A stretch of DNA of 64,000 bases from Chitinivorax sp. B (GTDB lineage: Bacteria > Pseudomonadota > Gammaproteobacteria > Burkholderiales > SCOH01): assembly GCF_005503445.1 (NCBI RefSeq), contig NZ_SCOH01000002.1, positions 1-64,000 on the forward strand. Reading direction: 5' to 3'. The notes beneath the pieces are model-generated. The model was not told where the DNA came from and did not search any database. It worked only from the letters and a program-made list of their open reading frames with translations. Below, one piece after another: positions 6,248 to 48,902 of the stretch; position 1 is the first letter of the stretch; every line of letters begins with the position of its first letter. Both the position numbers and the translations under genes were made by a program.

Positions 6248-8968
<2,721 letters not shown>

Positions 8969-9024
8969 GGGCGTTTCTTGTCTGGCCTTAAACAAACGGC
9001 CAATTGATCTTATCGTTCATAAAA

Positions 9025-9055
9025 GGCAAGGGGAGGTAGAACCCGCCCCCTTGCC
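9025..9055 (-). promoter_or_regulatory. Hairpin in the secA leader
   Basis: A 9-bp GC-rich stem (GGCAAGGGG paired with CCCCTTGCC) lies 57 bp upstream of the secA start. On the secA strand it is followed by TTTTATG, so it looks like a short leader attenuator or terminator. No upstream gene on that strand would need ending. The function is inference only. Confidence 0.35.
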
Positions 9056-9254
9056 GTGAAAATCTATGGGATAACGAACAAATTCATCCCAAATGCATTT
9101 TGCATGTTATTGCAAAACCTGGGCATCTTACCATAGCTACTGATCCCCGCGCACCCGCCAGCCAGTTAACGCCTATGCTGTCCACTGGTTGACACTTGGC
9201 GATATAGTACAAGCCCAGCTAAGATGTGGATACTCAGTGGAATATTCAAGTCTT

Positions 9255-9671: not shown

Positions 9672-9706
9672 GCACAGAGCATTCTTGTATCGCAGTGGAA
9701 CTGGAT

Positions 9707-9889
9707 TCATATCAGCCTACCGAGCAGGTAGTATGCAACATACAACAAACCTACCAGCAAGCCAGTTTTGATCAAACGTTTTGCTAGTAGTACGTATCCA
9801 GGCTGCCGAGTGAGTACTCCCAATAACACCAATACAATGCTTACCACAGCTACGACAATAACAATTAGTCGCAGCCAACCCACGGTCAT
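9707..9889 (-). CDS. Small two-helix membrane protein coupled to lpxC
   Basis: A 60-residue, very hydrophobic protein with two predicted membrane helices (about residues 6-26 and 38-57) separated by a short basic loop. Its ATG overlaps the lpxC stop by one base (TGATG), so it is probably translated by coupling with lpxC; that placement is the main reason to call it real. I do not recognise the family. It may be a small inner-membrane protein related to envelope synthesis by association, but no function can be assigned. Confidence 0.6.
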   Translation of the reverse strand: MTVGWLRLIVIVVAVVSIVLVLLGVLTRQPGYVLLAKRLIKTGLLVGLLYVAYYLLGRLI

Positions 9890-10803
9890 CAGACCAATGT
9901 GGGTTGCAAACGGTGGAACGAGTTGGGCACTTGCTCAGGCTTGTCAAAAGTTACCCACTCCCAAGCAGAGGCATCCGCCAATAGCGCCCGCAACAGCTTA
10001 TTGTTCATCATATGACCGGATTTGAACCCTGAGAATGCACCAATCAACGGGTGCCCTAAAATATACAGATCCCCTATCGCATCCAGCACTTTATGACGGA
10101 CAAACTCGTCTTCATAACGCAGTCCATCTCCATTCAGTACACGATACTCATCCAGAACAATTGCGTTGTCGAAACTTCCACCACGGCCCAAACCCATTTC
10201 ACGCATCATCTCGACCTCATGCATGAAACCAAAGGTACGAGCCCGGCTAATTTCCGTCACAAAGCTCGTATCGGCAAAATCAATGGTGACCGATTGGCTG
10301 GATTTACTGATGGCGGGGTGACGAAATTCGATAGTCAAGGAAACCTTGTACCCATTATGGGGCTCTAGCTTGACCCATTTGTCGCCATCGCGTATTTCTA
10401 CTGCTTTCAACACCCTGACAAACCGTTTCGGTGCTAGCTGCTCCACAATACCTGCTTGTTGGAGTAAATAGACAAACGTTGCCGCGCTACCATCCATGAT
10501 CGGCGTTTCTTGAGCATTGATATCAATATAGAGATTGTCCAGACCTAAGCCCGCAAAAGCTGACATCAAATGTTCAATCGTGGCGACCCGTACACCATCT
10601 TTCACAAGCGTTGAAGATAGACGCGTATCGTTGACCAAATCCGGCGTCACCCGAAACTCTGGAACAGCGGGTAGATCAACACGACGAAACACCAAACCAG
10701 TGTTGACCGGCGCAGGCCACAAATGCAGCGTGACACGATCCCCGGAGTGGAGCCCAACACCACTAGCTTTAACGGGTTGCTTGAGTGTACGTTGCTGAAT
10801 CAT
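9889..10803 (-). CDS. lpxC: UDP-3-O-acyl-N-acetylglucosamine deacetylase LpxC
   Basis: A 304-residue zinc deacetylase that carries out the committed step of lipid A synthesis, removing acetate from UDP-3-O-acyl-GlcNAc in the cytoplasm. The zinc ligands are visible as H78 (EHLMSA), H237 and D241 (HKVLDAIGD), with the catalytic H264 in SGHMMNN. The length equals that of the E. coli enzyme. It is followed by a coupled 60-aa membrane protein. The gap of 113 bp to the upstream diguanylate cyclase gene could hold its own promoter. Confidence 0.97.
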
Positions 10804-10916
10804 GGTAAGCGTCGATGCAAACTATTCGAAAGGACATGAAAGTCTAGCATATCGGTCTACTCACCCCAATTGAGTATTACTATTACATTCATCACCTGTT
10901 CAGCTAAAAAGCTGGG

Positions 10917-12518
10917 CTAGGTCGCCGCTGCAATGGTAATTCGATTTCGGCCCGCTCGCTTTGAAGCGTACAATGCCTCATCAGCTGCATTGATCAACTC
11001 TTCAACTGAATCAAAACCTGGATAGGCAGACACACCAGCACTAAACGTGATATTGAAACGGGTATCACGATATGGGTGTTCGATCAGGGCAAAATCTCCA
11101 CGAATCCGGTCCAGCACCAATCGAGCCTGCTCTGCATCCACACCAACCAAACCGATCACAAACTCTTCGCCACCATAACGGCCAATAATATCGCTCTTAC
11201 GTAATCGCTGTTTGAGCAACCAGGCCAAACTTCGAATGATTTGATCTCCCACAGGGTGACCGTAGGTATCATTCACTTTCTTGAAATGATCGATATCTAA
11301 CATCGCTACCGCCAACCGGCCATTTTCCCGCAGAGCGTAATTCAATGCAGCATCCAACGATGTTTTTGTACTGGTATGATTGAGTAAGCCCGTCAGACTG
11401 TCGTGAAACATTGAACGCCGCAACATGCGATAGCGCTCAATTTTGCTTTTTACAATCGCATTTAGAAAAACTTGATTGAACGGTTTGGTCAGGAAATGAT
11501 CCCCCCCCAAGCGCAATGCATCAACCTGCAACGCTACATCAGTTTCACCCGATAAATAGACAATAGGGATCGACAGAAATTCGTTGTGTTGCCGAATAAC
11601 ACGAGCAGCCTCAACACCCGTGCAATTGGGCATGTACATATCCATCAGGATCAAATCTGGCTGGAACTGCCTCAAGGCATTGAGAACCTGAAGTGGGTCT
11701 TGAATTGATTGTGTCGTGATATGGTGCTCTTCCAACGCACGCTGAATGGCCCTTGCTGCTGTTAGAGAATCCTCTACCACCAATACCCGGAACGGCTCCT
11801 GATCCGTAGGGTCGTTCAGCTCAAGGATTTGTGCTACCACACCTTGCAAGGAAGCTCCATGTGGAAAGCACCAGTCCGCACCACTTTTCAAGGCAAGTTG
11901 CAGTAAACGAAAATCCGAAGGCACGGACAAACCAATAATTTGTGCGAGTCGATGCTGTTCACGCAATACTTTTAACCGCGTAGACCAATCCTCCGTTGGA
12001 ATGTCATTAGTATCAAGCAATATTAAAGGATTGGGAGGGGCATCCAGCGGCAGCCGATCATCCCACCGCAGCTCCAGCACCTTTACCCCAAAATAGGTAA
12101 GCTGCCCAAGCAAATCCAACCACTCCTCGGCTGAATGTCCAATGAAATAGACAACTCGTGTAGGCCGCATTTCCTGTTGACTACGGCCAGCGCGACGATC
12201 ATCCAAACGTTCTGTCGCGTGGACGTAACTTTCCACCAACTTGGAAAGTGTATGCACTCGGTCATGCAGATCCTGCATCGACATATCCGGCATAGGGTGA
12301 TTGGTTTCATCACCAAACAGCGACAACGCAATCTGCTCAAGCTCCTTACTAGCGTGAAGCAGGCCAGTGACTGCCTTATCGATCAGATAATCGGTAAATG
12401 CATTAAGGGAAACCGCAAACTCGACGAAGTTCTCAAAGCTTGGAACTTTGCGATACCGTTGCCAGGTCAAGATCAGAGCCTGGTTCTTTTGGGCGAGTTC
12501 GACCGGCGAACAGGACAT
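10917..12518 (-). CDS. Response regulator diguanylate cyclase (pseudo-REC, REC, GGDEF)
   Basis: A 533-residue soluble protein. Residues 1-115 are a helical segment, 120-235 look like a receiver fold with only a partial acidic pocket (LLDTND, D169), 243-360 are a full receiver with VVED and phospho-acceptor D293 in LILMDMYMP plus K345, and 370-533 are a GGDEF domain with the active-site form GGEEF at 449-453. An RxxD product-inhibition site (R440-D443) sits exactly five residues before it. It should make c-di-GMP under control of phosphorylation and feedback. No partner kinase lies beside it, so it is an orphan regulator. It is upstream of lpxC, which seems incidental. Confidence 0.9.
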   Translation of the reverse strand: MSCSPVELAQKNQALILTWQRYRKVPSFENFVEFAVSLNAFTDYLIDKAVTGLLHASKELEQIALSLFGDETNHPMPDMSMQDLHDRVHTLSKLVESYVHATERLDDRRAGRSQQEMRPTRVVYFIGHSAEEWLDLLGQLTYFGVKVLELRWDDRLPLDAPPNPLILLDTNDIPTEDWSTRLKVLREQHRLAQIIGLSVPSDFRLLQLALKSGADWCFPHGASLQGVVAQILELNDPTDQEPFRVLVVEDSLTAARAIQRALEEHHITTQSIQDPLQVLNALRQFQPDLILMDMYMPNCTGVEAARVIRQHNEFLSIPIVYLSGETDVALQVDALRLGGDHFLTKPFNQVFLNAIVKSKIERYRMLRRSMFHDSLTGLLNHTSTKTSLDAALNYALRENGRLAVAMLDIDHFKKVNDTYGHPVGDQIIRSLAWLLKQRLRKSDIIGRYGGEEFVIGLVGVDAEQARLVLDRIRGDFALIEHPYRDTRFNITFSAGVSAYPGFDSVEELINAADEALYASKRAGRNRITIAAAT

Positions 12519-12626
12519 TTATGGAGTCTTGATATCAATATCCGAGGAAGGCCATAACCAACACGGCCACTTAGGAATATTCTAGCACGGTCGTTGAAGT
12601 CTGCCTGGAATCCATCGCCCAAACAA

Positions 12627-12648
12627 AAGGCCAGCATAAGCTGGCCTT
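12627..12648 (-). terminator. Terminator of the tRNA-Lys cluster
   Basis: A perfect 9-bp stem (AAGGCCAGC / GCTGGCCTT) with an ATAA loop, followed on the minus strand by TTGTTT after the stem. It lies directly after the last tRNA gene in transcription order. Confidence 0.85.
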
Positions 12649-12653
12649 AATTT

Positions 12654-12729
12654 TGGTGGGTTGTGCGCGACTCGAACGCGCGACCAACGGATTAAAAGTC
12701 CGCTGCTCTACCGACTGAGCTAACAACCC
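12654..12729 (-). tRNA. tRNA-Lys (anticodon TTT), copy 2
   Basis: A 76-nt cloverleaf on the minus strand with acceptor GGGTTGT/ACAACCC, anticodon loop CTTTTAA (anticodon TTT) and encoded CCA. Its sequence is identical to the tRNA at 12777-12852. It is the last gene of a three-tRNA transcript ending in the hairpin at 12627-12648. Confidence 0.95.
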
Positions 12730-12776
12730 GGTTTTTTGCGGGTATTGAAATCGTGCAATTGCGATTTCATTGAAAT

Positions 12777-12852
12777 TGGTGGGTTGTGCGCGACTCGAAC
12801 GCGCGACCAACGGATTAAAAGTCCGCTGCTCTACCGACTGAGCTAACAACCC
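12777..12852 (-). tRNA. tRNA-Lys (anticodon TTT), copy 1
   Basis: A 76-nt minus-strand tRNA with anticodon TTT and encoded CCA, identical in sequence to the copy at 12654-12729. The spacer between the two is 47 bp. Identical copies suggest recent tandem duplication or gene conversion. Confidence 0.95.
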
Positions 12853-12882
12853 GCACGCGGCGAGCTGCCACGGGAGGAAACT

Positions 12883-12958
12883 TGGTGGGTTGTGTAGGGA
12901 TCGAACCTACGACCTACGGATTAAGAGTCCGCTGCTCTACCAACTGAGCTAACAACCC
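12883..12958 (-). tRNA. tRNA-Lys (anticodon CTT)
   Basis: A 76-nt minus-strand cloverleaf with the same acceptor stem as its neighbours but anticodon loop CTCTTAA (anticodon CTT) and a different T stem (GTAGG/CCTAC). It reads AAG codons and is first in the tRNA transcript. Confidence 0.95.
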
Positions 12959-13021
12959 AAGAAGGCCGGCATTTTAACAATCGTATGAAAATTGTCAACT
13001 AATTAACCGACCTTTTTAAAA

Positions 13022-13699
13022 TCAACGATAGCGCGTTACATCAACAACCCCTGCCAATTCAAAGCCTTCCTTGCGCAAACGGCATGAGTCACATTGCCCA
13101 CAAGCACGTCCTTCTTCATCGGCCAGATAGCAGGAAACAGTCAGTGCATAATCCACTGCGCGGGTGACACCGGCAGAAATAATCTCTGCTTTGGTAAGAT
13201 CAATCAACGGAGTATGGATTTTGAAAGGATGCCCTTCCACCGCAACTTTGGTAGCAAGGTTAGCCATATCTTCGAAAGCCGAAATATATTCAGGGCGACA
13301 ATCTGGATACCCAGAATAATCCACAGCATTGACACCGACAAAGATGTCTTGTGCCTGTAGAACCTCTGCCCAAGCCAACGCATATGAAAGCATGATGGTA
13401 TTCCGTGCAGGGACATAAGTCACTGGAATAACACCCTCCTGCACCCCATCCGTTGGCACGTCAATTGACTTATCAGTTAATGCAGAGCCTCCAAATGCAG
13501 CCAGATCAATAGTCGCCAACCGATGCTCACGGGCACCCAAGGCATGAGCAACACGTTTGGCAGCAGCCAATTCAGCCGAATGACGCTGACCATACTGGAA
13601 GCTCAAGCAATAGCAATCAAAACTCTGTTCTTTAGCAATAGCCAGCACCGTTGCAGAATCAAGCCCGCCAGACAGCAGGATGACAGCTTTTTTGTTCAT
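13022..13699 (-). CDS. queC: 7-cyano-7-deazaguanine synthase QueC
   Basis: A 225-residue PP-loop enzyme that converts 7-carboxy-7-deazaguanine to preQ0 in queuosine synthesis, using ATP and ammonia. The ATP-binding SGGLDS motif is near the N-terminus and four cysteines near the C-terminus (C-Y-L-A then CGQCDSCR) form the zinc site. I chose the MNKKAV start because GAGGA lies 8 bp before it; an in-frame start 30 bp upstream would touch queE. It is last in the run that begins with ruvB and the tol genes and follows queE by 26 bp. Confidence 0.95.
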
Positions 13700-13725
13700 T
13701 TCAACCATCCTCAAAACCGAGCCGA

Positions 13726-14376
13726 TCATTTACCCGGGATATTACCCCATAACACTTTGTGCAACTGCAGCTGATACCTGACCGGCAAGCGGTCACGTAA
13801 TAACCAGTCGGCCAGTTCATGCGGCGCCACTCCACCATTGACTGGCGAGAATAGGACAGGGCAACGTAGATGTAACTGATGTTCCATCAACACTTGCTTG
13901 GCCCATTCATAATCCGCTTCGTGGCATATGACAAATTTCAGTTCATCATAAGGTGTCAACAATTCGATATTAGGCCAATGATTTTTCATGACCTCGCCAG
14001 AACCGGGGGTCTTCACATCAACGATCCGTGAAACACGAGGGTCGACATCATTGATTGGCAACGCACCACTGGTTTCCAGCGATACAGAATAGCCCTCATC
14101 ACAAAGCCGCTTCAAAAGCGTCAAACAGGTTTTCTGTGCCAGCGGCTCACCACCTGTCACACAAACATAGGGGGTACCATATTGCTGCACTTCATCCAAG
14201 ATACGATTAACGGTCCAGCCCGAGCCACCATGGAATGCATATTCGCTATCACAATATCCGCAGCGTAATGGACAACCGGTGAGGCGTACAAAAACCGTTG
14301 GTAAACCAACTCGGCTGGTTTCACCTTGTAGTGAATAGAAGATTTCAGTAATGCGTATGGATTGCGTGGTGGACAT
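13726..14376 (-). CDS. queE: 7-carboxy-7-deazaguanine synthase QueE (radical SAM)
   Basis: A 216-residue radical SAM enzyme that forms the 7-deazapurine ring from 6-carboxytetrahydropterin. The cluster-binding CPLRCGYC (CxxxCxxC) and the substrate-loop SLQGE are visible, and TGGEPL is the SAM-binding GGE motif. The start at MSTTQS is chosen by the family pattern; a GTG at 14406, 14 bp after the cpoB stop, is also possible. It makes the substrate for QueC encoded next. queD is not in the window. Confidence 0.94.
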
Positions 14377-14420
14377 CGTCTTGTGAGCCGGCGCGTTGTG
14401 ATGCACGTCGGCTGCTTGAA

Positions 14421-15218
14421 TTATCGGCTATTGGCAAGCAACCGCTTGGCTTTATCTGCGGCTGTTGAAACGGGATACTTGGCAACGAGGTCGTCAAGTG
14501 TCTTTCTGGCGGCTTTCTTCTCCCCCAACTCCAGCTGATTGGCGGCAATATTAAACATCGCATCCGGTACTTTGCTTGCATCCGCCCATGCGGCAATCAA
14601 CTTCTGCTGGGAGACAATCGCTCCTTTGTAATCTCGCAACGCTGACTGGGACATACCGATCCAGTATTGCGCATTCGGTGCCAGCTTACTCTCTGGGTAT
14701 GCTTTCAAGTATTCACGGAAGCCAGATACAGCTCCTTGATAATTACCCATTTTGTAAAGATTGAATGCCGCGTCATAAGCTGCCTGATCTCCTTCAGCTT
14801 TGGCCACGGTAACCAGTGGCTTTTCACCACCGCTACCCGTCCCAGCGTCAGCACCGCTATTGGGCTCCAAAGCACGCAGGCGACTATCCAGATCAATATA
14901 CAAATCCTTTTGTCGCTTTTGGGTTTGCTCGATGTTGTACTGCAACACCTCCAATTGCCCATTAAGTTTGTTCAGGTTATCCACTTGCGCATCCAGCTGC
15001 GAAACCAGATTGGATACCTTAAGGTTATCCACACGGGTTTCCAGTTGATTCAGACGATCACGCATTGCATGATTATCCTGACGCAATTGCTCAATCTGGG
15101 CTTTCAGATCAGCAATCATCTTGCGCGCTTCGGTGTCATCAAACAGCCCCGCTTGGCTGCTGGCAGCATAGGCCAGCAGCACTAGCGGGAACAGGCGCTT
15201 CATCAGACGCGGCATCAT
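14421..15218 (-). CDS. cpoB: Cell division coordinator CpoB (YbgF), Tol-Pal system
   Basis: A 265-residue periplasmic protein with a signal peptide ending S-S-Q-A-G near residue 23, an N-terminal coiled coil (about 30-110) that mediates trimerisation, a low-complexity linker, and a C-terminal TPR domain (about 135-265). CpoB links Tol-Pal function with septal peptidoglycan synthesis. It starts four bases after the pal stop codon, the standard place at the end of the tol operon. The first two codons are both ATG, and a third Met six residues in is an alternative start. Confidence 0.94.
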   Translation of the reverse strand: MMPRLMKRLFPLVLLAYAASSQAGLFDDTEARKMIADLKAQIEQLRQDNHAMRDRLNQLETRVDNLKVSNLVSQLDAQVDNLNKLNGQLEVLQYNIEQTQKRQKDLYIDLDSRLRALEPNSGADAGTGSGGEKPLVTVAKAEGDQAAYDAAFNLYKMGNYQGAVSGFREYLKAYPESKLAPNAQYWIGMSQSALRDYKGAIVSQQKLIAAWADASKVPDAMFNIAANQLELGEKKAARKTLDDLVAKYPVSTAADKAKRLLANSR

Positions 15219-15221
15219 CGC

Positions 15222-15764
15222 TTACTTATCGTCAGAATAAACGACATCAGCACGGCGGTTGATGGCAAATGCCTCTTCATCATGGCCCGTTGCCTTCGGC
15301 TTTTCTTCACCGTAACTGATGGTTTCGATCTGGCCTTCGGTTACACCGAGTGTCGACATCATCTTCTTAACCGCTTCAGCACGCTTCTGGCCAAGCGCAA
15401 GGTTGTATTCACGACTACCACGCTCATCTGCATTGCCTTCGATCTTGACTTTCAGGTCACGTTTCTCAGTCAAGTATTTAGCGTGTGCTTCAACCAGCGC
15501 CTTGTGATCGTCACGTACGACATACTTGTCATAGTCAAAATAGATGCTACGTTCAGCAAGCTTATTGTTCGGGTCTTGATGCGGCGGCAGATTGGCAGTG
15601 CTCAGGCCATCACTTGGCACCGGATTGGTTTCAGGTGACTTGGTCGTGTCTTGCTGCGAGGTTCTGTCTTCAACCGGTACCTTGGGGGTAGCTTCCGGCG
15701 CGGGAGTGCTGGCGCAAGCAGCCAACAGGCTGACTACCAAAGCGCTGAGCAGTACTTTTTTCAT
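15222..15764 (-). CDS. pal: Peptidoglycan-associated lipoprotein Pal
   Basis: A 180-residue lipoprotein with lipobox L-L-A-A-C after a short basic signal peptide, a proline/threonine-rich linker, and an OmpA-like domain with YFDYDKYVV and NADERGSREYN, the diaminopimelate-binding loop. Pal sits in the outer membrane, binds peptidoglycan and is moved to the septum by Tol proteins. The chosen ATG follows AGGAGA by 6 bp; a longer in-frame opening of 20 codons lacks a signal and is rejected. A 195-bp gap separates it from tolB and may hold a second promoter. Confidence 0.96.
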   Translation of the reverse strand: MKKVLLSALVVSLLAACASTPAPEATPKVPVEDRTSQQDTTKSPETNPVPSDGLSTANLPPHQDPNNKLAERSIYFDYDKYVVRDDHKALVEAHAKYLTEKRDLKVKIEGNADERGSREYNLALGQKRAEAVKKMMSTLGVTEGQIETISYGEEKPKATGHDEEAFAINRRADVVYSDDK

Positions 15765-15959
15765 GTTTTCTCCTAATGATATAGGTGGGAATACTTCCCG
15801 GCGGGGTAAGTTTGATCTTCCCACTTAACTGATTATGTTAACGTATCTGGTCCAAATATGATCGATTCAGGCATCAATACTGAACAATACAGAACCACCA
15901 AATGGGCTGGAGATACTTGGTATTCCGCATAAAACACAGAGTCATCTCAAGCCAGACCT

Positions 15960-17252
15960 TTATTGAAAAGCTGGGCTCCATGCTGGTTCACGAATATCGC
16001 CTGATTGCACACGTAAGCGCTGCTTGACCCGACCATCACTTGATGCAGCCGCAAGCACCCCCCTGCGCCCTACTTCAGTGGCATAGAGAATGATTTTACC
16101 GTTTGGCGCAAAAGATGGCGATTCATCTGCCGCAGTATCGGACACAATTGTCGTCACACCACTCGCCAAATCCATCACAGCCACCTGAAATTTGCCACTT
16201 TCCCGTTTGACGAAAGTCAGGTTCTTACCATCAGGGCTAAACCGTGGCGATACACAATAATCACAATCAAAAGTCACACGCCGGACATCACCACCAGAAG
16301 AAGACATCATATAGATTTGAGGGCTGCCACCTCGATCAGAGGTAAACACGATGCGGCTACCATCAGGCGAGAACTCCGGCTCGGTATCAATACCGGAGCT
16401 ATTGGTGAGTCGAGTCAAGCCAGAACCATCTGCGTTCATTCCATAGATCTGCGACAAGCCGTCCTTGGTCAGCACCACAGCCAATCGACTTCCATCTGGC
16501 GACCAGGCTGGTGCGCTGTTGCTGCCCTTTGAGGCCGACACGACACGACGTTGCCCGGTAGCTAGCACATGCGAATAAACGATAGGTTTTTTCTGCTCGA
16601 AGGACACGTACGCCAATTTTGCACCATCTGCAGACCATGCTGGCGAGATGATTGGCTCTGAAGAAGCCAGTACGGTTTGTGCATTGAAGCCATCAGCATC
16701 AGCCACTTGAAGTTCATAACGCTTACCTTGCTTCAGGATATAGGCGATTCTGGTCGCAAACACACCTTTGTCACCTGTCAGTTTCTCGTAGATCACATCC
16801 GCAATCTTATGGCCCGCCAAACGAATCTGATTCGGTTTGACCACATGGCTTACCCCGGCCAACTGCTGTTTGCGCAATACATCCATCAAGCGCACACGAA
16901 TAGTGGCGGACCCATCGCCATTATCACTCACCGACCCAATGGCAATCGCTTCCGCCCCTTTGCTCTGCCAGTCCCCATAATTGAGTTGATTGGGTTCGGT
17001 GGGCACGGGATTGACACTGGCGGCATCCACCAGCTTGAACATGCCGCTACGCGCCAGATCAGCTTGCACAATGGCTGTTACCGATTCCTTGAGGACGCCT
17101 TCTTTACCCAAGGGCGCAATAGCCACCGGGATCTGCTTAGCGCCACCGCCAATAATCTCGATGGTCAAGGCCGCATTTGCGTATTGACATGCCAAACCGC
17201 AAGCCAGTGCGGCCATGGCGAATAGTTTTTTGCTGATCATGAAACGACTCAT
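15960..17252 (-). CDS. tolB: Tol-Pal system periplasmic protein TolB
   Basis: A 430-residue periplasmic beta-propeller. The signal peptide ends near Q-Y-A-N-A, an N-terminal domain follows (about 30-160), then six propeller repeats with WSPDGS and FSPDGS blades (about 190-425). TolB binds Pal and is competed off by TolA. The ATG at 17252 follows GGATGGAG closely; a TTG at 17264 is also open. It begins directly after the tolA stop. Confidence 0.96.
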   Translation of the reverse strand: MSRFMISKKLFAMAALACGLACQYANAALTIEIIGGGAKQIPVAIAPLGKEGVLKESVTAIVQADLARSGMFKLVDAASVNPVPTEPNQLNYGDWQSKGAEAIAIGSVSDNGDGSATIRVRLMDVLRKQQLAGVSHVVKPNQIRLAGHKIADVIYEKLTGDKGVFATRIAYILKQGKRYELQVADADGFNAQTVLASSEPIISPAWSADGAKLAYVSFEQKKPIVYSHVLATGQRRVVSASKGSNSAPAWSPDGSRLAVVLTKDGLSQIYGMNADGSGLTRLTNSSGIDTEPEFSPDGSRIVFTSDRGGSPQIYMMSSSGGDVRRVTFDCDYCVSPRFSPDGKNLTFVKRESGKFQVAVMDLASGVTTIVSDTAADESPSFAPNGKIILYATEVGRRGVLAAASSDGRVKQRLRVQSGDIREPAWSPAFQ

Positions 17253-17264
17253 TACTCCATCCAA

Positions 17265-18038
17265 TCAATCGTTGGGCCTGAACACCAAACGCAACACTCG
17301 AAAATCCTGGAAACGCATGCCATCCGGCAATGGCGGCAATGGGCTGGATTTCAAAATGGCACGCTCAATCGAATCATCGTAGGCGGTGCTGCCACTGGAC
17401 TTGCGCTTGACAACATTAAGCACTTCCATCGTCGGCAACAACGTCACTTCAAACACGGCTTCTGGGTTGTCGCGCACATCATCGGGCACATTCACGAAGC
17501 GCTTGATCCGCGATTGCACTTGCGAAATATAGTCTCCAACTGCCTTCTGTTTAGCTGTATCAGCAGCAGCCTTGAGCTTGGCCTCATTTTGTGCAGCCGC
17601 CCTGGCCAAGGCATCCTGCGCTGTTTTAAGCTCATGCTTGATCTTCTCATCTGGCGGCACTGGCTTAAGCTCAGGCTTTTTCTCAACCGGCTTGGATTCC
17701 GGTTTCGGCTCTGGTTTCTTCTCTATCTTTTCCGGCTCACGCTTTTCAGGCACCTTCTTGGGTTCCTTGATAGCAATGTCCGGTTTGGCAATGTGATCCG
17801 ACACCTCCGGGTCCGGTTCAGGCACCGGACGTTTCACCACCTTCTTTGGCGGAGTAGGCTGCTCAACCGGGCGTGTGGTTGGCTTGGGCATGCCCGCCCA
17901 CAATTCGACCGATACCGGTTGTTTGCGTTCATTCTGCCACTGCAGGCCAAATACCAGTAGACAGAAAAAAACCACATGAACGCCGACAGACAATGCGAGC
18001 GATAGCCCCCGTTTGTCTTCATGTTGCGACTGCGTCAT
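17265..18038 (-). CDS. tolA: Tol-Pal system inner-membrane protein TolA
   Basis: A 257-residue TonB-like protein. There is one membrane helix at about residues 14-34, a long periplasmic stalk rich in Lys, Pro and Glu (about 50-170), and a C-terminal TolA/TonB domain (about 175-257). TolA couples the proton-driven TolQR motor to TolB-Pal. The stalk is shorter and richer in proline than the helical E. coli stalk. Its ATG overlaps the tolR stop by four bases. Confidence 0.94.
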   Translation of the reverse strand: MTQSQHEDKRGLSLALSVGVHVVFFCLLVFGLQWQNERKQPVSVELWAGMPKPTTRPVEQPTPPKKVVKRPVPEPDPEVSDHIAKPDIAIKEPKKVPEKREPEKIEKKPEPKPESKPVEKKPELKPVPPDEKIKHELKTAQDALARAAAQNEAKLKAAADTAKQKAVGDYISQVQSRIKRFVNVPDDVRDNPEAVFEVTLLPTMEVLNVVKRKSSGSTAYDDSIERAILKSSPLPPLPDGMRFQDFRVLRLVFRPND

Positions 18039-39891: not shown

Positions 39892-40353
39892 TCATACCTT
39901 GCCGGGATGCATGCCTGCGGCCACTTCACCCAGTGCAGCCACATTTTCAATACGCGAGATCTGTTGCAACAGGTGGTCGGCGACCTGATCCTCAACGACT
40001 GCCAGCTCATTTTCCATCATGCCTAAAGCCTTGCCATACTCAACAATGCGCGCCCTTTCAGTGGTGGAATACTGGCCATCTGCATAAGCCAGCAACAGGC
40101 AGGAATGGAGGAATGCGCGTTTCAGTTCTGGCGTATTGAAATTATCTGCCAAGGCTGACAGATCCAGCTTGACGGATACCAACTCCTGAAAAGTGGTCAG
40201 TGCCTGGCTATCTGCCTGGCAGGCTTGGTAGAAGCCGTTGAGCATGACCCGCTCAGCATCATGTACGCCATCGACCAATGACAGCTCGTGCATGGCACGA
40301 ACCAGCAGCTGGACGTGATTGATGTTCAACTCGATATTCATGGTGGAGATCAT
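39892..40353 (-). CDS. TerB-like protein (operon gene 9)
   Basis: A 153-residue all-helical protein with two DG-containing repeats, LVDGVHDAERVM (28-29, Glu34) and AYADGQYSTTERARI (92-93, Glu99), as in the TerB/tellurite-resistance fold where these acidic residues bind divalent metal. GAGAGGA lies five bases before the ATG. It is the last gene of the operon, 60 bp after the AAA ATPase gene. TerB-like proteins often accompany membrane-stress systems. No TerC, TerD or TerA partner is present, so tellurite resistance itself is not supported. Confidence 0.65.
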   Translation of the reverse strand: MISTMNIELNINHVQLLVRAMHELSLVDGVHDAERVMLNGFYQACQADSQALTTFQELVSVKLDLSALADNFNTPELKRAFLHSCLLLAYADGQYSTTERARIVEYGKALGMMENELAVVEDQVADHLLQQISRIENVAALGEVAAGMHPGKV

Positions 40354-40413: not shown

Positions 40414-42237
40414 CTAAAGCCGCAATTCACGCTTCAGTTCCCGCAGACGCTGATGTATCTGTTCTTGTGTGTAATCACGGTAGCGGGCCGGCAACATACT
40501 GCGACGGGATGCTTCAAATACGGCTTGCAGCTCCATGTACTCCAGCATCGCGCTATCACGTGAGGGCATGTAATCCTGCGCTGCAGTGTCCAGAATCGGC
40601 AACGTAATGGCCTTGCCATCCGCCAGTGCGTGCGCCAACAACGCCACCGCTTCCAGATCCGCATTGGCGTAGCCAGTCAGCCGGCTCAAAACCGGGTCAG
40701 CTTGAGACCAGTCGAAACCGCTCGTCAGGCGATGCCGGGCGAACAGCGCTTGCAAAATGGCCGATACTTCATCGACCGAATCCGGGTAGAAAAACGGTAT
40801 CTTGCGATCAAGCCGACCGGCCCGTTTGATGTCGATATCCAGTTTGTCTGGTCGATTGGTCATCATCACAAACAACACCACCCCCCGGTTTTCCGGGTCG
40901 CTCATGAATGCCTTAAGCCGGGCGATGATTCGCGAAGAAGTACCGCCATCTGTGTCTTCAGAGCCCCCGCCAAAGCTGCGATCACCTTCGTCGATGATCA
41001 GAACAATAGGGCCCAGTGCTTTGACCATGCCCAATACCTTTTCCAGATTGGCTTCTGACGAACCCACCCACTTGGATCGGAAGTTCTTGAGCGTGACTGC
41101 ACTCAAACCCGCACTTTTGACAAAACAATTGGCCACGAAGGTTTTACCAGTCCCCATTGGGCCAACAAACAGCAAACCCATCGGTACCCTTGTCTTGTCA
41201 CCGCTACGGATCGCAGCAGCAATCTGCTCCAGCTCTGCCTTCAGCCCTTCGTTCCCACCCACAGCCGACAAATCGTGGCGAGAATCGACAAACTCAATCA
41301 ACCCTTCGCACTCTTTCTCGATGATCTCCCGCTTGCGGGCATACACCAGATCCAGTACTTCTGCATAGGGATCGCTGCTGGCTGAATGTTGCTGCTGGAT
41401 ATCAGGGTTCAACAGGTGGCGGATTTCGTCGGCATCCATACCACGTGTCAGCAGGGTCAATTTGTCGGCACGGGTGCTGACATCCACCGAATCCGCCAAC
41501 AGGGACAAAATCAACACACGTCGATCGTCATCGCTCAAGTCATCTGCCCTTGGCGACAGAATCTGGGCAATCTGCACAGCACGTAGCCCTGCGGTATGTT
41601 CTGCCAAGCGTTGCACTTGTGTTGACGGCATGGTCGTATCGCATTGCTGGATGACGGTTTCACGCAAGACCCGATCGGGTAACGGTATTTCGACAGCCGC
41701 CACACGTGGGTTGGCTACAATTTTGGCATTCAGCTCGGTCAGAGATTCGGTCAGCAAAAACACCACATTATCCTTGCGATGCAATTGCGGGCTAAGTGTC
41801 CAACGGTGAAGCCGGATGGCGGCAAAACGATCCGCGTGCGTCAGCATGCTCTCATCACCTGGTGGGGCGACACTGCTGGCGTAGGGTATGATCAACGCCG
41901 TGCGATCCTGGGCCATCAATTCAGGCTCCAGCTTGGCCAATACCTCATCGGGCAAAGCCCCGGCTGGCAACGAAGTAACTGGCGACATGACTGCCCGCTT
42001 GGCATAACGCACACCAGCCGACGGGTCGTAAACAATGATTGTCTGCTTGTTGTCCTTCAGCAATACATCCGTCAAGAAATCGACCAGTGTGTAATAGTGC
42101 CCGTCGTAAAGCTGCTCATCGAACACATTGTGATGCAGCACAAACATGGAAGCTTCACCACTCACATATTTGCGGCGAACATTTTCGGCCCAACCAGGCA
42201 AAGCTGGTCTTGCAGGCAACGACGGCGGGGTCATCAT
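40414..42237 (-). CDS. Two-part AAA ATPase (operon gene 8)
   Basis: A 607-residue cytoplasmic protein. Residues 20-280 look like a degenerate AAA module without Walker motifs, in the manner of Ycf46-type proteins. Residues 320-510 are a complete classical AAA domain with GPMGTGKT (359-366), VLIIDE (412-417), sensor asparagine N461 and an arginine-rich second region of homology KRAGRLDRK (471-479). The C-terminus is helical. It starts four bases after the PspA-like gene, so the two are surely co-translated. A remodelling or disassembly role on the PspA polymer is an attractive inference. Confidence 0.8.
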
Positions 42238-42241
42238 GACA

Positions 42242-42946
42242 TTACATCTGCTTGCCAGCAGCAGCCTGGGCGCGCTGCCGCTTCAACTCGTCCAATTGGG
42301 CACGGGCAGTCACCGTACCAGTTTGTTGACGCAGTTTATCCAGACGCACATCCAGATCGGTATCGCGTAGTTCCTTGCCCAAATTGGCCTCGGCAATAGT
42401 GGTTTTGATGTGCTCACGAACACGGTCCAGCGCTTGCACGTCAGCCTCAACACTCAAACCTTCCAGTTGCGATTGAATCTGGATCCGGGCCTGGGCGCTT
42501 TGCATCTTGGCCAGCATCCGGTCACGCTCATCCTTGAGTTTGCCAATTTCACCCTGCACAGCCAGCAAGGCATTCTTGGCATCATCAGCATCAGATTTGG
42601 CCTGCTCTGCCTCGCCCACCAAGCCATTCAGATCGGCCTCGATCGCACTTTTCTTTTGCAACAGCACCAGCGCCAAGTCATCCTGATTGGTGGCCAATGC
42701 TGTCTCCAGCTCGCGCGTGACCTGGTCAAGCGCTTTGCGTTCGGTATTCACCCGGCCATCGATTTCGTCACGACGACGGATGATTGCTGCTGTCGCCGAC
42801 TTCAAGCGGGTGTATTTGGTCACCATGCCATTGATGGCGTTCTCATAGGCTATTTCGGGATGTTCTTTTTCAACATCGGCAATCCACAGCGATACAAAAC
42901 CACTCCACAGGTTACCCAAACGGGCAAAAAAATTAACATTCGCCAT
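42242..42946 (-). CDS. PspA/IM30-like coiled-coil protein (operon gene 7)
   Basis: A 234-residue, highly charged helical protein with the PspA/Vipp1 layout: a short N-terminal amphipathic stretch ([17 protein letters not shown]), a long helical hairpin (about 30-150) and further helices to the end. PspA and Vipp1 belong to the ESCRT-III superfamily and polymerise on membranes. No pspF, pspB or pspC gene is present; instead the neighbours are an AAA ATPase and an ABC system. Its start overlaps the preceding gene by 14 bases. Homology is judged by length, pattern and context. Confidence 0.7.
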
Positions 42947-43826
42947 GTTTCGCTCCTATTTCTGTCAGATTCATTAAGGGGTCATGATTAACCCGCTCGA
43001 AAAAAGTTCGGTGATCTTCGGCAAAACGCTTGAAGCCCTGATGCAACTGCGCACGCAATACGTCATGCATAGCTGTCGGCACATTGCGGAAGGCCAGTCT
43101 CGCACCTTGTGTTGCCCAATCGAAATGGTCTGCCTCTGCGCCACCACCATGTCCGGAATGAATGGCAAGCCATTGGTATGCCACATGGTCTTGCCCGGCA
43201 ATATTGACCCGGGTGTTTTTCAATGTCTGTACAAGCGTCGGCGCGTAGAAACACAGCGTTTCGTCAATGATGGAAAATTCACGATCCGCCAATAATTCGG
43301 AACCCAGGTGATAACCAATGCAGCTGAAAATGGCCGGTAAGTCATCTGCCGTACCAACGCCATACCCTTCGGCGACACGGGCATTCAATAATGTCAGCCA
43401 TTCAGGTTCATGCAACAGGGCATTGAGGTCGGCATGCTGTAGAGGATTGGCAGCGGTCTCAACATCGATCACCCCTTTCAGCATGGATTGCGCCAGACAG
43501 CGGTGTGTATCACGGTGGACGGTATCGCGGTCATCGAACTCATCACGTGCAGCATCAAAGAAAAAGCTGGCCACAAATACGCTACGATCTGCCAATGCGG
43601 CCACTGGTTGCGTCGCATCATTGAACAGACCACGGGAACGGCCGATTTTACCGGCCAACGATGCGACACCTGAGCCAAAAAAACCGTTCCAGCTAGCATA
43701 GCGCCCAAGGAAACGAATGCGCGTCAGCGGGGCCTGTAATGCATCGGTCAGGGTATCTTTGACCAAGGCCTCGTGCAGTCCAAAATCGCACAATGCTTTC
43801 AGTTCCGAAACGGTGATGTTGCCCAT
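42933..43826 (-). CDS. Unknown helical protein, possible haem-oxygenase-like di-iron fold (operon gene 6)
   Basis: A 297-residue soluble protein I do not firmly recognise. Candidate metal ligands include GYHLGSELLADREF (His173, Glu177) and AIHSG-GGGAEADHFDWA (His223, Glu231, His234), a spacing like that of haem-oxygenase-like di-iron or TenA/PqqC-type proteins. A further H104-x-x-x-H108 pair lies in an acidic stretch. It overlaps the PspA-like gene by 14 bases, which points to a tight functional tie. An oxidase or a metal/redox sensor are possible roles. The family call is a guess from motif spacing. Confidence 0.45.
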   Translation of the reverse strand: MGNITVSELKALCDFGLHEALVKDTLTDALQAPLTRIRFLGRYASWNGFFGSGVASLAGKIGRSRGLFNDATQPVAALADRSVFVASFFFDAARDEFDDRDTVHRDTHRCLAQSMLKGVIDVETAANPLQHADLNALLHEPEWLTLLNARVAEGYGVGTADDLPAIFSCIGYHLGSELLADREFSIIDETLCFYAPTLVQTLKNTRVNIAGQDHVAYQWLAIHSGHGGGAEADHFDWATQGARLAFRNVPTAMHDVLRAQLHQGFKRFAEDHRTFFERVNHDPLMNLTEIGAKHGEC

Positions 43827-43884: not shown

Positions 43885-44739
43885 TCAGTGACTGACATTC
43901 ACGGTTGCTTTACCTGCAGCGGGTCGAATTGGCTCACGCAATTCGGCCTCATAACCACTACACAATTCTTCCTCCAGGCGCAGGCGATCAATGGCCTCTT
44001 GCAGCCTGCCTCCTCCTTCATTAAAGGCAGGGACGGCAATCACTGCCTGATAGATTTCCTCCACCGCATCTGGCAATGATAGCAGCGCAGCTTCCACAGC
44101 CGCTTTCCGCCCAGTCAAACGTTGGTGGCGCTGGCGAAGTTCTTCCAGATCGGCTCGCGCTTTCAACAAGCTATGCTGATCGCCACCACCGGCCGCAATC
44201 TGGCTATCGATCTGTTCAATCTTGCGTGTCAATTTGGCCTCATCCACGCTTTCCTGTCGGGATGCAATACTCAGACGTGCCAACCAAAGACTCATGAAAT
44301 CCACCGGTGCATCTTCCAGTCTGGCCATATCATGGGAAGGAATGGCCGTTTCACGGTGAGATGCTGCGGCAATGATCGCCATAATGCGCTCTTGTATTTG
44401 TACCAGCACCCGCCAATTCGGATGCCCTTCATTGCAATGACGCAGGATTTCTGATCGTAGTTGCGCCATGCGCAAATCGCGTTGGCGATTCCGATAGGCC
44501 CGATCCACCTTGGCACGGAAGGTTGAAGATGATGGAATGAATGTTGCGGCAATGATTTCGCCAGCAACAAATGCAATGGCCGGCAAAATTGCGCCGGACA
44601 GGCCGAATGGTATGGCAAGCAAAGCGCTGGTCGCTGCCGTACCCAAAAAAGCATAGAAATTGGGCTGGCTCCGCAGCATCTCCTTCAGATAGGACGGTTG
44701 TTCTGTTTGGCCGGTCGTCCAGCCATTCTGCTCGCTCAA
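43885..44739 (-). CDS. Membrane and coiled-coil protein (operon gene 5)
   Basis: A 284-residue protein of unknown family. Two adjacent membrane helices occupy about residues 28-68 (LLAIPFGLSGAILPAIAFVAG), followed by about 200 residues of highly charged helix likely in the cytoplasm, including a coiled coil near 165-230. It may anchor the PspA-like protein or the AAA ATPase at the membrane. It lies 49 bp after the ABC ATPase gene and 58 bp before gene 6. No enzyme motif is visible. Confidence 0.6.
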   Translation of the reverse strand: MSEQNGWTTGQTEQPSYLKEMLRSQPNFYAFLGTAATSALLAIPFGLSGAILPAIAFVAGEIIAATFIPSSSTFRAKVDRAYRNRQRDLRMAQLRSEILRHCNEGHPNWRVLVQIQERIMAIIAAASHRETAIPSHDMARLEDAPVDFMSLWLARLSIASRQESVDEAKLTRKIEQIDSQIAAGGGDQHSLLKARADLEELRQRHQRLTGRKAAVEAALLSLPDAVEEIYQAVIAVPAFNEGGGRLQEAIDRLRLEEELCSGYEAELREPIRPAAGKATVNVSH

Positions 44740-44788: not shown

Positions 44789-45625
44789 TCAGACCGATAC
44801 CGCTACCGTGCCGCGCCGATTACCACTATGCAGTGTCGCCAATACGCGCTCCTCCATTTTGATGGCTTCAGCTGATCGCAGCCATTGCTCACCGCGCGGT
44901 CTCAGCGCATGGATATTGAAGTCATCAGCAATTTTTGCCGGCTGGGTCGACAACACAATTACGCGATCCCCCAGTATCAAGGCTTCAGTGACATCATGGG
45001 TTACAAAGATGGTCAGGCAAGGTGAATCATGGTGCAGCTTGGCCAACAGCTGCTGCATTTCGGCGCGGGTCTGTGCGTCCAGCGCACCAAATGGCTCATC
45101 CATCAACAGGATTCGCGGCCTAAGGACGAGTGCCCTGGCCAACGCCACCCGCTGATTCTGCCCACCGGACAATTGCCCAGGAAGATTCCGCTTGCGGTCA
45201 GCCAAGCCGACCGCTTCCAGCATTGCATCCACTCTGTCGGTCCACTCCTTTTGTGGCACACTCTGGCGCCAGCGAGCAAAACGAAAAGGTAGTGCAACGT
45301 TGTCCCATACCGTCAGATCCGGTCGGTTGGCATAGCGCTGGAACACCATCACCACGTCATCATGAGCCGCCGTACATGGCTGACCGTCAATCAGCACCTC
45401 ACCTGTAGTAGGTGTATCGACACCAAATGGGCGCACCCCACCCATCATGTGTAACAAGGTCGATTTGCCACATCCTGACGGCCCCAACAACATGTTGATG
45501 CCAGGTTTGTCGAAGCGTAGGGAAACATCATTGATGACGGTGATGGGTTGACGGCTGCCATCACGGGCCGGATATTGCTGCACGATGTTACGCAGCTCGA
45601 CACTGATGGCCGGCGCAGTGCTCAT
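44789..45625 (-). CDS. NitT/TauT-type ABC transporter ATPase (operon gene 4)
   Basis: A 278-residue ABC ATPase with Walker A GPSGCGKST, signature LSGGQNQRVALARAL, Walker B ILLMDEPFGALD and the H-loop VTHDVTE, of the nitrate/sulfonate/taurine class. The start is the ATG overlapping the permease stop by four bases (ATGA); a much longer in-frame opening of 91 codons is an overlap artefact with Cys- and Arg-rich composition. It should energise the permease encoded just upstream. Confidence 0.9.
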   Translation of the reverse strand: MSTAPAISVELRNIVQQYPARDGSRQPITVINDVSLRFDKPGINMLLGPSGCGKSTLLHMMGGVRPFGVDTPTTGEVLIDGQPCTAAHDDVVMVFQRYANRPDLTVWDNVALPFRFARWRQSVPQKEWTDRVDAMLEAVGLADRKRNLPGQLSGGQNQRVALARALVLRPRILLMDEPFGALDAQTRAEMQQLLAKLHHDSPCLTIFVTHDVTEALILGDRVIVLSTQPAKIADDFNIHALRPRGEQWLRSAEAIKMEERVLATLHSGNRRGTVAVSV

Positions 45626-46434
45626 AACTGGGTTTCCCATGGGTAAAGTCGGCGCTTGGCGTATTGCATCCCCTGATAGGTGGCAAGGGCCAGTGCAATG
45701 ATGACGATAATGCCGGCAAACACCTGATCCATCGCCGAGAAACGTCGTGCGTTCTGAATCAACTGGCCAAGGCCTTCCTGAGCATTGACGTACTCTGCAA
45801 CAGTGATATAAGTCCACATCACGGACACCGACACGATCACGGCATCCGCAATACGCGGCATCGACAGCGGCAGTACCGAATGACGTACCGCCTCCCACGG
45901 CGTAGCGCCAAGGTCACGGGCACTGATCCAATAGGCTTGCGGTACGGCACGCACAGCATCACGTACCATGGGAATCAGGTACACCACGGCCCCTACGAAC
46001 AGAAACAGGATCTTCATCCATTCACCAATCCCGAACCACATCACCATGATTGGCAGCAAAGCCACCACTGGCGCCGACCTGAAAGGATCAATCAATGGCG
46101 ACAAGGTAGCATTGACCCGTGGTGAGGCCCCCATCAACACGCCGACAGGGATACCGATCATCAGCACCAGGACACCTGCAGCCAGTACCCGCCCAACGGA
46201 CCAGAGCGTGGCGGTCAACAGCAAACTGGTCTGACGCTCGCCATCCCAAACCAAGTATGTCAATGCTTTGGCCACCTGCCATGGTGCTGGCAACTTGTTG
46301 GGGCCTACCAGACCGGAACCAGCTAGTGCGCTCCAAACCATCAGGACAACCAATACCGCTAAAATACCCAGCCAGCGACGCTGGCTGGCGTCAAGCAACG
46401 CATAGGGATTCCAGAAACTCTTCGCGTCTGACAT
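45622..46434 (-). CDS. NitT/TauT-type ABC transporter permease (operon gene 3)
   Basis: A 270-residue inner-membrane permease with six or so helices and the EAA loop DLGATPWEAVRHSVLPLSMP, typical of SsuC/TauC/NrtB proteins. It lies 10 bp after the solute-binding protein gene and overlaps the ATPase gene by four bases. The substrate is not known; the unusual binding protein makes simple assignment to taurine or nitrate unsafe. Confidence 0.88.
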   Translation of the reverse strand: MSDAKSFWNPYALLDASQRRWLGILAVLVVLMVWSALAGSGLVGPNKLPAPWQVAKALTYLVWDGERQTSLLLTATLWSVGRVLAAGVLVLMIGIPVGVLMGASPRVNATLSPLIDPFRSAPVVALLPIMVMWFGIGEWMKILFLFVGAVVYLIPMVRDAVRAVPQAYWISARDLGATPWEAVRHSVLPLSMPRIADAVIVSVSVMWTYITVAEYVNAQEGLGQLIQNARRFSAMDQVFAGIIVIIALALATYQGMQYAKRRLYPWETQL

Positions 46435-46444: not shown

Positions 46445-48133
46445 TCAGCGGGTCAATACAGCCGTACGGGTTGTACGGTTCAAGGCACGGCAGTCTTCAA
46501 CCGTCAACTCTTCCGCCGCTGCATTGCGTTCGTCACACAACGGCTTGTCCGGGCCGTTGCCGAGGATTTTGAACCGGGCTCGGTCAAACTCCCATTGACT
46601 GACCAAGTAGTTCACCACCGCCTGAGCACGGGCTTGCGACAGGCGCATATTGGTGTCTCGCGCTCCAGTTGCATCCGTATTCCCAGAGATTTCAAAATAA
46701 GCCGATCCATTGTTTTCAATGAAAGGCACCATTTCGTCATCAATGGTCTTCTGCGCCCGCTTGGTCAACTCAGCTGATCCGCTGGCAAATCCGACCCGCA
46801 CCGGTTTGGTCACGGTGGCTTCTTTGCTCGCAGCTGCTTCACGGCCCGTATCGCTGAAACTGTACTCAGGTTTGGTCGCGGCTTGCTGAGCAGCCTTGTT
46901 CTTGTCCAGCAATGTCTTTATGTAGCGCAGATCAACCGAATCCTGCGGCTCAATGACCGGAGATTTGGGGTTGGCCAAGGCACCGGCAGCACGGTAAATG
47001 CCATCAAAACGACGGTAAACCCGCTCGTAGTGGTTGGTACCACCCGCCAGACCCAGAATCCGCGCGTTGTCTTCCAAGCCCGTCCATACCAGATTATTGA
47101 ACAAGCTCTTGATGAACGGTTTGCCTTGATCTTTGGCCAGCAGGGCAAAAAACTCCTCGGTGTTCACCAAGGCTTCTACTGCATCGTCTGGTTTGGCCTT
47201 GGCCGCATCGATACCTGCCATCCAACCACTGACAAAACCCTGGATTGCCGCTTGGTTGACCGGATCCTGCAACACGCGCTGGTCACACACCATGACGTCG
47301 TAAATCAGATTGGAAGCTGTCTTTGTGGAATACACCACCTTGGCACCAGGAATCTTTTTCAGCGCAAGTGACAGGTCGGGATCCCACAATGCAGCGGCAT
47401 CGACATTACCAGCCTCCAGTGCGGCACGAACCCCGGCCGTACCTTCCTCTGCGTTGATGAAGACCATCTTCACCGATGCCTTTTTACGAGCAGTGAGACT
47501 GGAGCTATCCAGCGCATCAATCACCATGCCGTGTGAAGGGGTGAACTGCAACATGGCGATGTTGCGCCCGGCCAGATCTTCCACACTCTTGATGGCTGGA
47601 TCACGGGTGATGATGGCATCTGCCCCCTGTGTGTTATCGACCACCATGACCGCGCGTGCATCCAAGCCAGCATTGCGCAGATTAGGCTGCTCCTGAGCCC
47701 AGAAATCCGAGGTACGCCATGCACAATGGGCAGCTTTGGATTCAAAAATGGTCGACAAGGTAGGGATATCGTCCTGAATTACCAACTTTACTTGCACCCC
47801 CTGCCGATCAAAGATTGAGCCGGACTGGGTAGTCAATGACTTACCGTTGGCCACCAGCGCTGGAGCATAACCGTGAAAGCTGACAATGCTGACCTTCAAA
47901 GGATTGCCATTGCTACCCAAAGTGCCTGACACTTTTTCCGGTGCAGATGGCGTAGCTTTACCTGAAGTAGCTGTTACATCAGTCCGCTGACCAGCATCAG
48001 CACCACTCATCGGTTGCGAATTACTCATGCGCTGTACGATGTCTTTCAAGCCGAAATGCCAGGCGACTGCTGTCGCACTACCCAGCACGGCTACCGTAAT
48101 CAGGCCTTTGGCCAAAGGAGTCAGTCTTGCCAT
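46445..48133 (-). CDS. Solute-binding protein fused to an OmpA peptidoglycan-binding domain (operon gene 2)
   Basis: A 562-residue periplasmic protein. There is an N-terminal membrane helix without a clear cleavage site (LITVAVLGSATAVAWHFG), a Ser/Thr/Ala-rich linker, and a NrtA/SsuA-like solute-binding domain (about 75-400, with the segment SVEDLAGRNIAML). An OmpA-like domain follows (about 440-562) with SGNTDATGARDTNMRLSQARAQAV, the peptidoglycan-binding loop. The fusion suggests a binding protein held between inner membrane and cell wall. The start chosen drops 15 residues of unsupported N-terminal extension. Confidence 0.85.
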   Translation of the reverse strand: MARLTPLAKGLITVAVLGSATAVAWHFGLKDIVQRMSNSQPMSGADAGQRTDVTATSGKATPSAPEKVSGTLGSNGNPLKVSIVSFHGYAPALVANGKSLTTQSGSIFDRQGVQVKLVIQDDIPTLSTIFESKAAHCAWRTSDFWAQEQPNLRNAGLDARAVMVVDNTQGADAIITRDPAIKSVEDLAGRNIAMLQFTPSHGMVIDALDSSSLTARKKASVKMVFINAEEGTAGVRAALEAGNVDAAALWDPDLSLALKKIPGAKVVYSTKTASNLIYDVMVCDQRVLQDPVNQAAIQGFVSGWMAGIDAAKAKPDDAVEALVNTEEFFALLAKDQGKPFIKSLFNNLVWTGLEDNARILGLAGGTNHYERVYRRFDGIYRAAGALANPKSPVIEPQDSVDLRYIKTLLDKNKAAQQAATKPEYSFSDTGREAAASKEATVTKPVRVGFASGSAELTKRAQKTIDDEMVPFIENNGSAYFEISGNTDATGARDTNMRLSQARAQAVVNYLVSQWEFDRARFKILGNGPDKPLCDERNAAAEELTVEDCRALNRTTRTAVLTR

Positions 48134-48203
48134 AGTTGTCGTGTGTCGTCCGAAGAAAATTGAAAAACCGAGCCGCATTCATGTTGACTGCGGTAATGAG
48201 AAT

Positions 48204-48902
48204 TCATGCGGCAGGCGTACCAAAAATGCGCCGGATTTCCTCTAACCTGCCGATTTCCACTTGTAGTCGGGCGGTTTCACGCTCTGCGGCCTCCCGTGTC
48301 GCTCTGGCCTGGTGTTCAGACTCGGCCTTTTCATTGGCGGCCCGAGCCAGTTCCCGCTCCATCAATGCTTCCAGGTCTGTCATTTGCTGGCGGATACGTG
48401 CGACGCTCTCTTGTAGCACCTGTTCCCGCTCGATAATGGCTTGCTGCGTCGCTTGTTCGGCCGAAGCAACGGCAGCCATGATTTGCTGCTTCGCTTTCTC
48501 CAGCGCCTGCACTTTGATTGTTGCATCAGCAACCGAATCATCGATGGTCCAGCTTTCATCTGCCGCATCCAGTGCCAGCACCGCTGCTTTACGGGTATTT
48601 GCATCCAATGCCAGTAACCCGTCCAATACTTTCAGCAGTTTTTCAGCAGCAAAGGGAGAAGGGGGAATATTGAACGCACTGTAGATTTCTTCCAATGGCC
48701 GTTGCTCGGTCACACCTTCAGCTACCGGCACAGGTATTTGCGCTGGGATTTCCAGAGTAAACGGTTCAATTGGCACGTCACGCCCAGGGACATCGTCACC
48801 TGTATTGATAAGTGATTTGGTCTCAGCAACCTGGGGGTCGTTCGGGACATCATCCAGTTCAATCAATCCAACCTTGTGCAGTGCGCGCATGAAGCCACTC
48901 AC
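48204..48902 (-). CDS. Coiled-coil protein of unknown family (operon gene 1)
   Basis: A 232-residue soluble protein. The N-terminal 75 residues are acidic and proline-rich; residues 80-130 are helical and 130-225 form a long, strongly charged coiled coil. It starts at a GTG seven bases after GGGAG; an ATG four codons further in is possible. It is first in the operon, 70 bp before the solute-binding fusion gene. No known domain is recognised. The coiled coil could contact the other helical proteins of the operon. Confidence 0.6.
   Translation of the reverse strand: MSGFMRALHKVGLIELDDVPNDPQVAETKSLINTGDDVPGRDVPIEPFTLEIPAQIPVPVAEGVTEQRPLEEIYSAFNIPPSPFAAEKLLKVLDGLLALDANTRKAAVLALDAADESWTIDDSVADATIKVQALEKAKQQIMAAVASAEQATQQAIIEREQVLQESVARIRQQMTDLEALMERELARAANEKAESEHQARATREAAERETARLQVEIGRLEEIRRIFGTPAA

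Follow-up and report, generated by a model that had tools for sequence, protein, structure and literature searches.

The PspA-like gene and the adjoining AAA ATPase gene of Chitinivorax sp. B are part of an eight- or nine-gene operon that also encodes a sulfonate/taurine-type ABC transporter, and it is rather probable that the AAA protein is dedicated to remodelling the PspA polymer of this operon at the expense of ATP. As judged from its predicted structure, the AAA protein is a tandem (type II) AAA protein of the p97/Drg1/Rix7/Pex1-6 kind with a dead first module. The operon lies in the window, i.e. the whole 64,000-nucleotide stretch that was analysed, to which the positions below refer unless a different contig is named. 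That the AAA protein remodels a PspA polymer had already been suggested by the first-pass annotation of this DNA and is still the best hypothesis, backed by the conservation of the gene linkage, of the minimal loci, of the pore loop and of the PspA tail; the Vps4-like build that the annotation implied for the AAA protein did not survive the structural comparison described below.

The annotation had correctly read the two genes as 4 bp apart: both are real open reading frames on the minus strand, the PspA/IM30-family gene at 42242-42946 (234 aa, C-terminal end ...AAAGKQM) and the tandem AAA gene at 40414-42237 (607 aa, with a degenerate AAA-1 and an AAA-2 of active type), and the open reading frames of the window leave four bases (42238-42241) between them. 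The operon runs on the same strand in the order coiled-coil, SBP-OmpA, permease, ABC ATPase, X, Y, PspA, AAA and TerB-like. At its head stands a 232-aa protein (48204-48902), likely a coiled coil, for which a Pfam search returned zero matches. The transporter's binding protein (SBP, 46445-48178) combines an NMT1/SsuA-type domain (PF09084, 28.1 bits) with a C-terminal OmpA peptidoglycan-binding domain (PF00691, 52.0 bits), and has a single hydrophobic stretch near its N-terminus. Next come a permease of the TauC/SsuC type (45622-46434; PF00528, 92.1 bits), which scores 145 bits against the TauC family, under that family's cut-off of 342, and an ATPase of the nitrate/sulfonate/taurine type (44789-45640; PF00005, 99.2 bits). 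Note that the open reading frame of the latter extends to 45898, the start at 45640 being inferred from the close relative L019. X (43885-44739) is a protein with a predicted TM hairpin followed by helices. Y (42933-43826, 297 aa), which overlaps the start of pspA by 14 bp, has zero matches in Pfam and NCBIfam, and the last gene (39892-40353) encodes a TerB/DUF533-like protein (PF05099, 31.7 bits). Promoter and terminator scans of the locus found fewer sites than in shuffles.

A scan of the contigs of 84,980 species yielded 533 stretches that fit a search pattern, 445 of which encode relatives. The best 80 of these 445, which come from Gammaproteobacteria, Betaproteobacteria, Acidobacteriota, Myxococcota and Desulfuromonadales, were taken with their flanking DNA, and 84 loci were examined in all. 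The AAA protein is rare: at class level it was found in one of 274 genomes (E 1e-30), the sole one being the window's own, and at phylum level in four of 398 (E 1e-25), in two of them through divergent forms. Since the gene counts per locus rest on mechanically called open reading frames, they are lower bounds. Of the related loci, 55 have 8 kb or more of upstream sequence; in 54 of them PspA is encoded on the same strand as the AAA protein, and the linkage is therefore not due to chance. SBP-OmpA (49), X (47), the ABC ATPase (44) and the permease (42) accompany the pair in most of these 55 loci, and the coiled-coil protein in 30. A TerB-like gene lies directly downstream of the AAA gene in 26 of the 67 loci with enough sequence, and Y is confined to 10 of the 84 loci, mostly those of gammaproteobacterial relatives. 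Two gene orders are seen repeatedly: one is (coiled-coil)-SBP-permease-ATPase-X-PspA-AAA, and the second, which many Acidobacteriota share with some other genomes, is PspA-SBP-permease-ATPase-X-AAA. In several Acidobacteriota the PspA and AAA genes are kept in one operon at a distance of about 4.3 kb, which argues for more than accidental adjacency.

The pair persists in three loci where the transporter genes were not detected, which speaks for the remodeller hypothesis: in L072 PspA and AAA were the sole members of the core set to be detected, and L024 and L027 hold PspA, AAA, Y and sometimes TerB. The branch lengths of all operon proteins are strongly correlated in a mirror-tree comparison (r 0.54-0.99), a result without discriminating power, as the genes of the operon have a common history. 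Such a correlation is also what plain co-inheritance would produce if PspA and the AAA protein were merely co-regulated in an envelope/solute-stress operon and made no direct contact; we consider this very unlikely, given that the two genes stay together where the remaining ones go undetected and in different gene orders. A divergent subtype of the pair is found in L021 (7248-9779) and L022 (8351-10942), where the AAA protein is 32-33% identical and shorter, the K-x-M tail described below is missing, and the next gene encodes a TM protein whose layout resembles that of X.

The AAA protein matches PF00004 with 86.5 bits (cut-off 21.2) over residues 355-482, and the SRH arginines R472 and R475 are invariant in 73 of 73 orthologues, in good agreement with the earlier reading of a classical AAA domain with an arginine-rich second region of homology. 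Its degenerate N-terminal module likewise proved real, and is itself a degenerate AAA domain: the chain consists of AAA-1 (about residues 14-290), AAA-2 (about 310-580) and a C-terminal helix (591-605), and a Walker A motif is present in none of the 73 N-modules and in all 73 C-modules. In AAA-2 the GKT, the KWVG pore loop, the DE, the sensor 1 N and both Arg fingers are invariant in 73/73 orthologues, so that Walker A and B, sensor 1, Arg fingers and an aromatic pore loop are all found in one module. An AlphaFold model computed from the 73 orthologues (pLDDT 89.8) was compared with solved structures. Foldseek returned Rix7, Cdc48, NVL and p97 as best matches (E 2.1e-21 for 7swl_D), and VIA aligned residues 12-579 of the model with substrate-bound Drg1 (7z11_C; Z 24.6, 478 residues aligned). 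Against Cdc48, Rix7 and Pex1/Pex6, VIA gave Z 22.5-24.5 across both modules, and the range for the tandem group as a whole, with Drg1 included, is Z 22.5-24.6 over 440-500 residues (about 24 over 470-490 residues for Drg1, Cdc48/p97, Rix7 and Pex1/6); both methods thus find two AAA modules spanning the chain, and the fold covers p97 D1 and D2. These matches are to double-ring unfoldases that thread their substrates, a further point in favour of the remodeller hypothesis. A solved precedent for an inactive D1 above an active D2 is Pex1/Pex6 (PMC10518020).

Vps4 (3eih) aligns with module 2 alone, at Z 22.9 across 262 residues. No MIT three-helix module is seen at the N-terminus of the predicted model; the region is alpha/beta and AAA-like instead, with predicted strands at 31-36, 66-71, 113-117, 158-163 and 179-184 that match p97 D1-type domains. 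A Vps4 beta-domain is also missing, as the model has no strands of at least 3 residues from 482 to the C-terminus. Among curated models, CdvC scored 36.3 bits (cut-off 650) and CDC48 74.9 bits (cut-off 802.65), both sub-threshold. Membership of the Vps4/CdvC family was rejected on these grounds (no MIT, no beta-domain, 36.3 bits against the CdvC cut-off), and the nearest solved structures are tandem p97/Cdc48, Drg1, Rix7 and Pex1/6 instead. A PspF-type regulator was considered separately and also rejected, as the protein is without sigma54 or HTH parts.

The partner is a true PspA. Its match to PF04012 is full-length and above the cut-off (residues 6-225; 67.1 bits, cut-off 33.9), which confirms the earlier placement in the PspA/Vipp1 branch of the ESCRT-III superfamily, and a profile of 57 orthologues matches Vipp1 structures (6.5e-12). 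The operon PspAs form their own clade with respect to the seven other placeable PspAs from the sampled genomes (support 0.98), with a mean column identity of 68% versus 56% for the AAA protein. In 67 of 70 unique C-termini the protein ends in the three residues [KR]-x-[MLI], as a rule KTM, KSM or KQM, preceded by an Ala/Gln-rich linker that varies in length and sequence. The tail is not encoded uniformly either: each of the two Lys codons is used, and so are several codons for Thr/Ser. Among the other proteins of these loci only 7 of 411 have such an end, six of them X. The tail is retained where SBP-OmpA instead of AAA follows PspA, and likewise in loci whose transporter genes went undetected; L021 and L022, the two most divergent pairs, are without it, and the second PspA of the genome ends in SPKQDT.

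Vipp1 residues R44, E126 and E179 are needed for the slow, weak intrinsic ATPase of PspA/Vipp1 (PMC11746142). At these positions the operon PspAs carry K, K/Q and V/I, respectively, each in 70 of 72 sequences, and have thus lost the residues linked to this activity; family membership stands, since ATPase residues are not a defining feature of the fold. The loss is in keeping with energy being supplied by a partner, and, like the conserved tail, would suit a PspA on which a dedicated motor pulls. The relation between the two proteins might also be the reverse, PspA being an adaptor or inhibitor whose coiled coil binds the AAA ring and blocks its ATPase until membrane stress removes PspA. We regard this as improbable: binding and inhibition of the AAA+ protein PspF by PspA are known from E. 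coli (PMC3128695), and two-gene coupling would suit a regulator and its target, but the AAA protein carries neither a DNA-binding nor a sigma54 module, its pore loop is of the kind that threads substrate, and the conserved feature of PspA is found at the C-terminus and not only in the helical hairpin.

X is predicted to form a two-TM hairpin at about residues 25-70 (hydrophobic windows 34-70), after which the chain continues as a long helical part on the cytoplasmic side; its model (pLDDT 83.5) is entirely helical. It matches nothing in Pfam or NCBIfam, has a probability of 1.9 in an hhalign profile comparison with PspA, and yields no Foldseek match with E below 0.28. In VIA, Z reaches 9.9 to BAR domains and long-helix bundles, which is chance level for helical models, and the Z of 7.6 to E. 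coli PspA(1-144) is within the same chance range. Profile and fold comparison thus neither show nor exclude that X is a second ESCRT-III protein (a 'Snf7 with TM'); a role as membrane anchor is plausible. X belongs to a conserved, fast-evolving family, 6 of whose 65 members end in [KR]-x-[MLI].

In many Acidobacteriota loci it is X that stands next to the AAA gene in place of PspA. The archaeal Vps4, CdvC, is moreover a poorer match for AAA-2 than Cdc48, PAN and FtsH are, so that the substrate may be another protein, e.g. a transporter subunit. The AAA protein could on this basis be an unfoldase for the quality control of membrane proteins, acting on the ABC transporter or X, with PspA as a recruiting scaffold or leak sealer and not the substrate. 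The p97/FtsH/PAN-like motor, the position of X and the presence of transporter and X genes in 42-49 of the 55 full loci all agree with such a role. We nevertheless hold it to be unlikely, because loci with PspA and AAA but without detected transporter genes do occur (L024, L027 and L072), PspA is the partner most often retained, and the PspA tail would be left unexplained. The tail can also be turned against the remodeller hypothesis, as it might be bound by X, TerB, the ABC ATPase or the membrane, and not by the AAA ring; its absence from L021 and L022 counts against the hypothesis too.

Under the preferred remodeller hypothesis, PspA would assemble at the cytoplasmic face of the inner membrane, beside the peptidoglycan-anchored ABC transporter and X. 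The AAA protein would build a two-tier ring whose degenerate first tier docks the substrate; in the catalytic second tier, the KWVG pore loops would grip the flexible C-terminal tail of PspA (the K-T/S/Q-M end) and thread it from there. PspA subunits would be extracted in this way, and the polymer recycled or reshaped. In this picture physical binding, the direction of threading, disassembly of the polymer, the membrane localisation and the link to transport are inferred. The AAA protein would then be to PspA what Vps4 is to ESCRT-III, acting through a p97/Pex1-6-type machine and not an MIT-AAA cassette. More tentatively, and with somewhat less than even confidence, we suggest that the system is a bacterial functional counterpart of the ESCRT-III/Vps4 cycle that was built independently, in which a double-ring unfoldase whose first ring is dead recognises the K-x-M tag of a dedicated PspA subfamily, and that the cycle is coupled to an ABC transporter anchored to peptidoglycan. 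The pair is well suited to asking whether bacteria own a Vps4-like recycling engine: with a conserved pair, an intact motor and a candidate recognition tail, the question is reducible to two proteins and one three-residue deletion.

The first-pass annotation had also set the pair apart from the PspF-controlled psp system, having seen none of its regulators; their absence extends to the genome. Profile searches, on which all our genome-wide statements about this assembly rest, found neither PspB nor PspC anywhere in the assembly, and even the best score for PspF, 277 bits, stays below the equivalog cut-off of 443.55 bits. One further PspA is encoded, on contig C11. Its locus (L023, G000:C11:55000-74000, 7426-17951) is a DUF2170(CesT/Tir-like)-PspA operon that also encodes a 231-aa membrane protein, a 690-aa protein, a zinc-ribbon protein and a 1731-aa DUF3686 AAA protein, and it resembles another operon type that Ravi et al. 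2024 (PMC11237479) describe. Two PspA-AAA operons of different kinds are thus present in a single genome.

The association of PspA with such an AAA protein and the ESCRT-like proposal are already published: Ravi et al. 2024 (PMC11237479) describe PspA together with a two-AAA protein, whose N-terminal copy is inactive, in ABC/OmpA operons, and propose ATP-dependent, ESCRT-like (Snf7/Vps4-like) membrane remodelling. The locus is a further member of this predicted system, with the same components and the same functional proposal, and the set described there is complete in the window (PspA, AAA with an inactive N-copy, ABC ATPase, permease and PBPB+OmpA). The two descriptions differ in that Ravi et al. 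also name Snf7 homologues with a TM segment, whereas X has a TM hairpin and no detectable homology to PspA. The PspA tail, the lost intrinsic-ATPase residues and the p97/Pex-like fold were not found in the accessible text of that paper; these three points and the figures for the gene linkage are our additions. A literature search that covered few subscription journals found no experimental work on this operon type.

Like ESCRT-III/Vps4 (CdvB/CdvC), the operon places a polymer protein of the superfamily, with a conserved C-terminal motif, beside a classical AAA protein with a threading-type pore loop. It differs in that the AAA protein has two AAA modules instead of one and neither MIT nor beta-domain, and in that the PspA motif comprises three residues and not an MIM helix. 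The canonical pspFABC system and the CesT(DUF2170)-PspA-flotillin-AAA operon share the PspA family with the window, and the same genome has its DUF2170-PspA-DUF3686 AAA operon on contig C11; PspB, PspC and PspF of the former are absent here, and the AAA protein and PspA of the window fall into different clades from those of both. Finally, the tandem AAA architecture is shared with Cdc48/p97, VAT, Drg1 (AFG2), Rix7/NVL and Pex1/Pex6, and in Pex1/6 D1 is catalytically dead too. Unlike the members of this group, with which it shares about 20% identity, the AAA protein of the window has no N-domain before AAA-1, lacks any Walker A in AAA-1, and comes with a dedicated operon partner.
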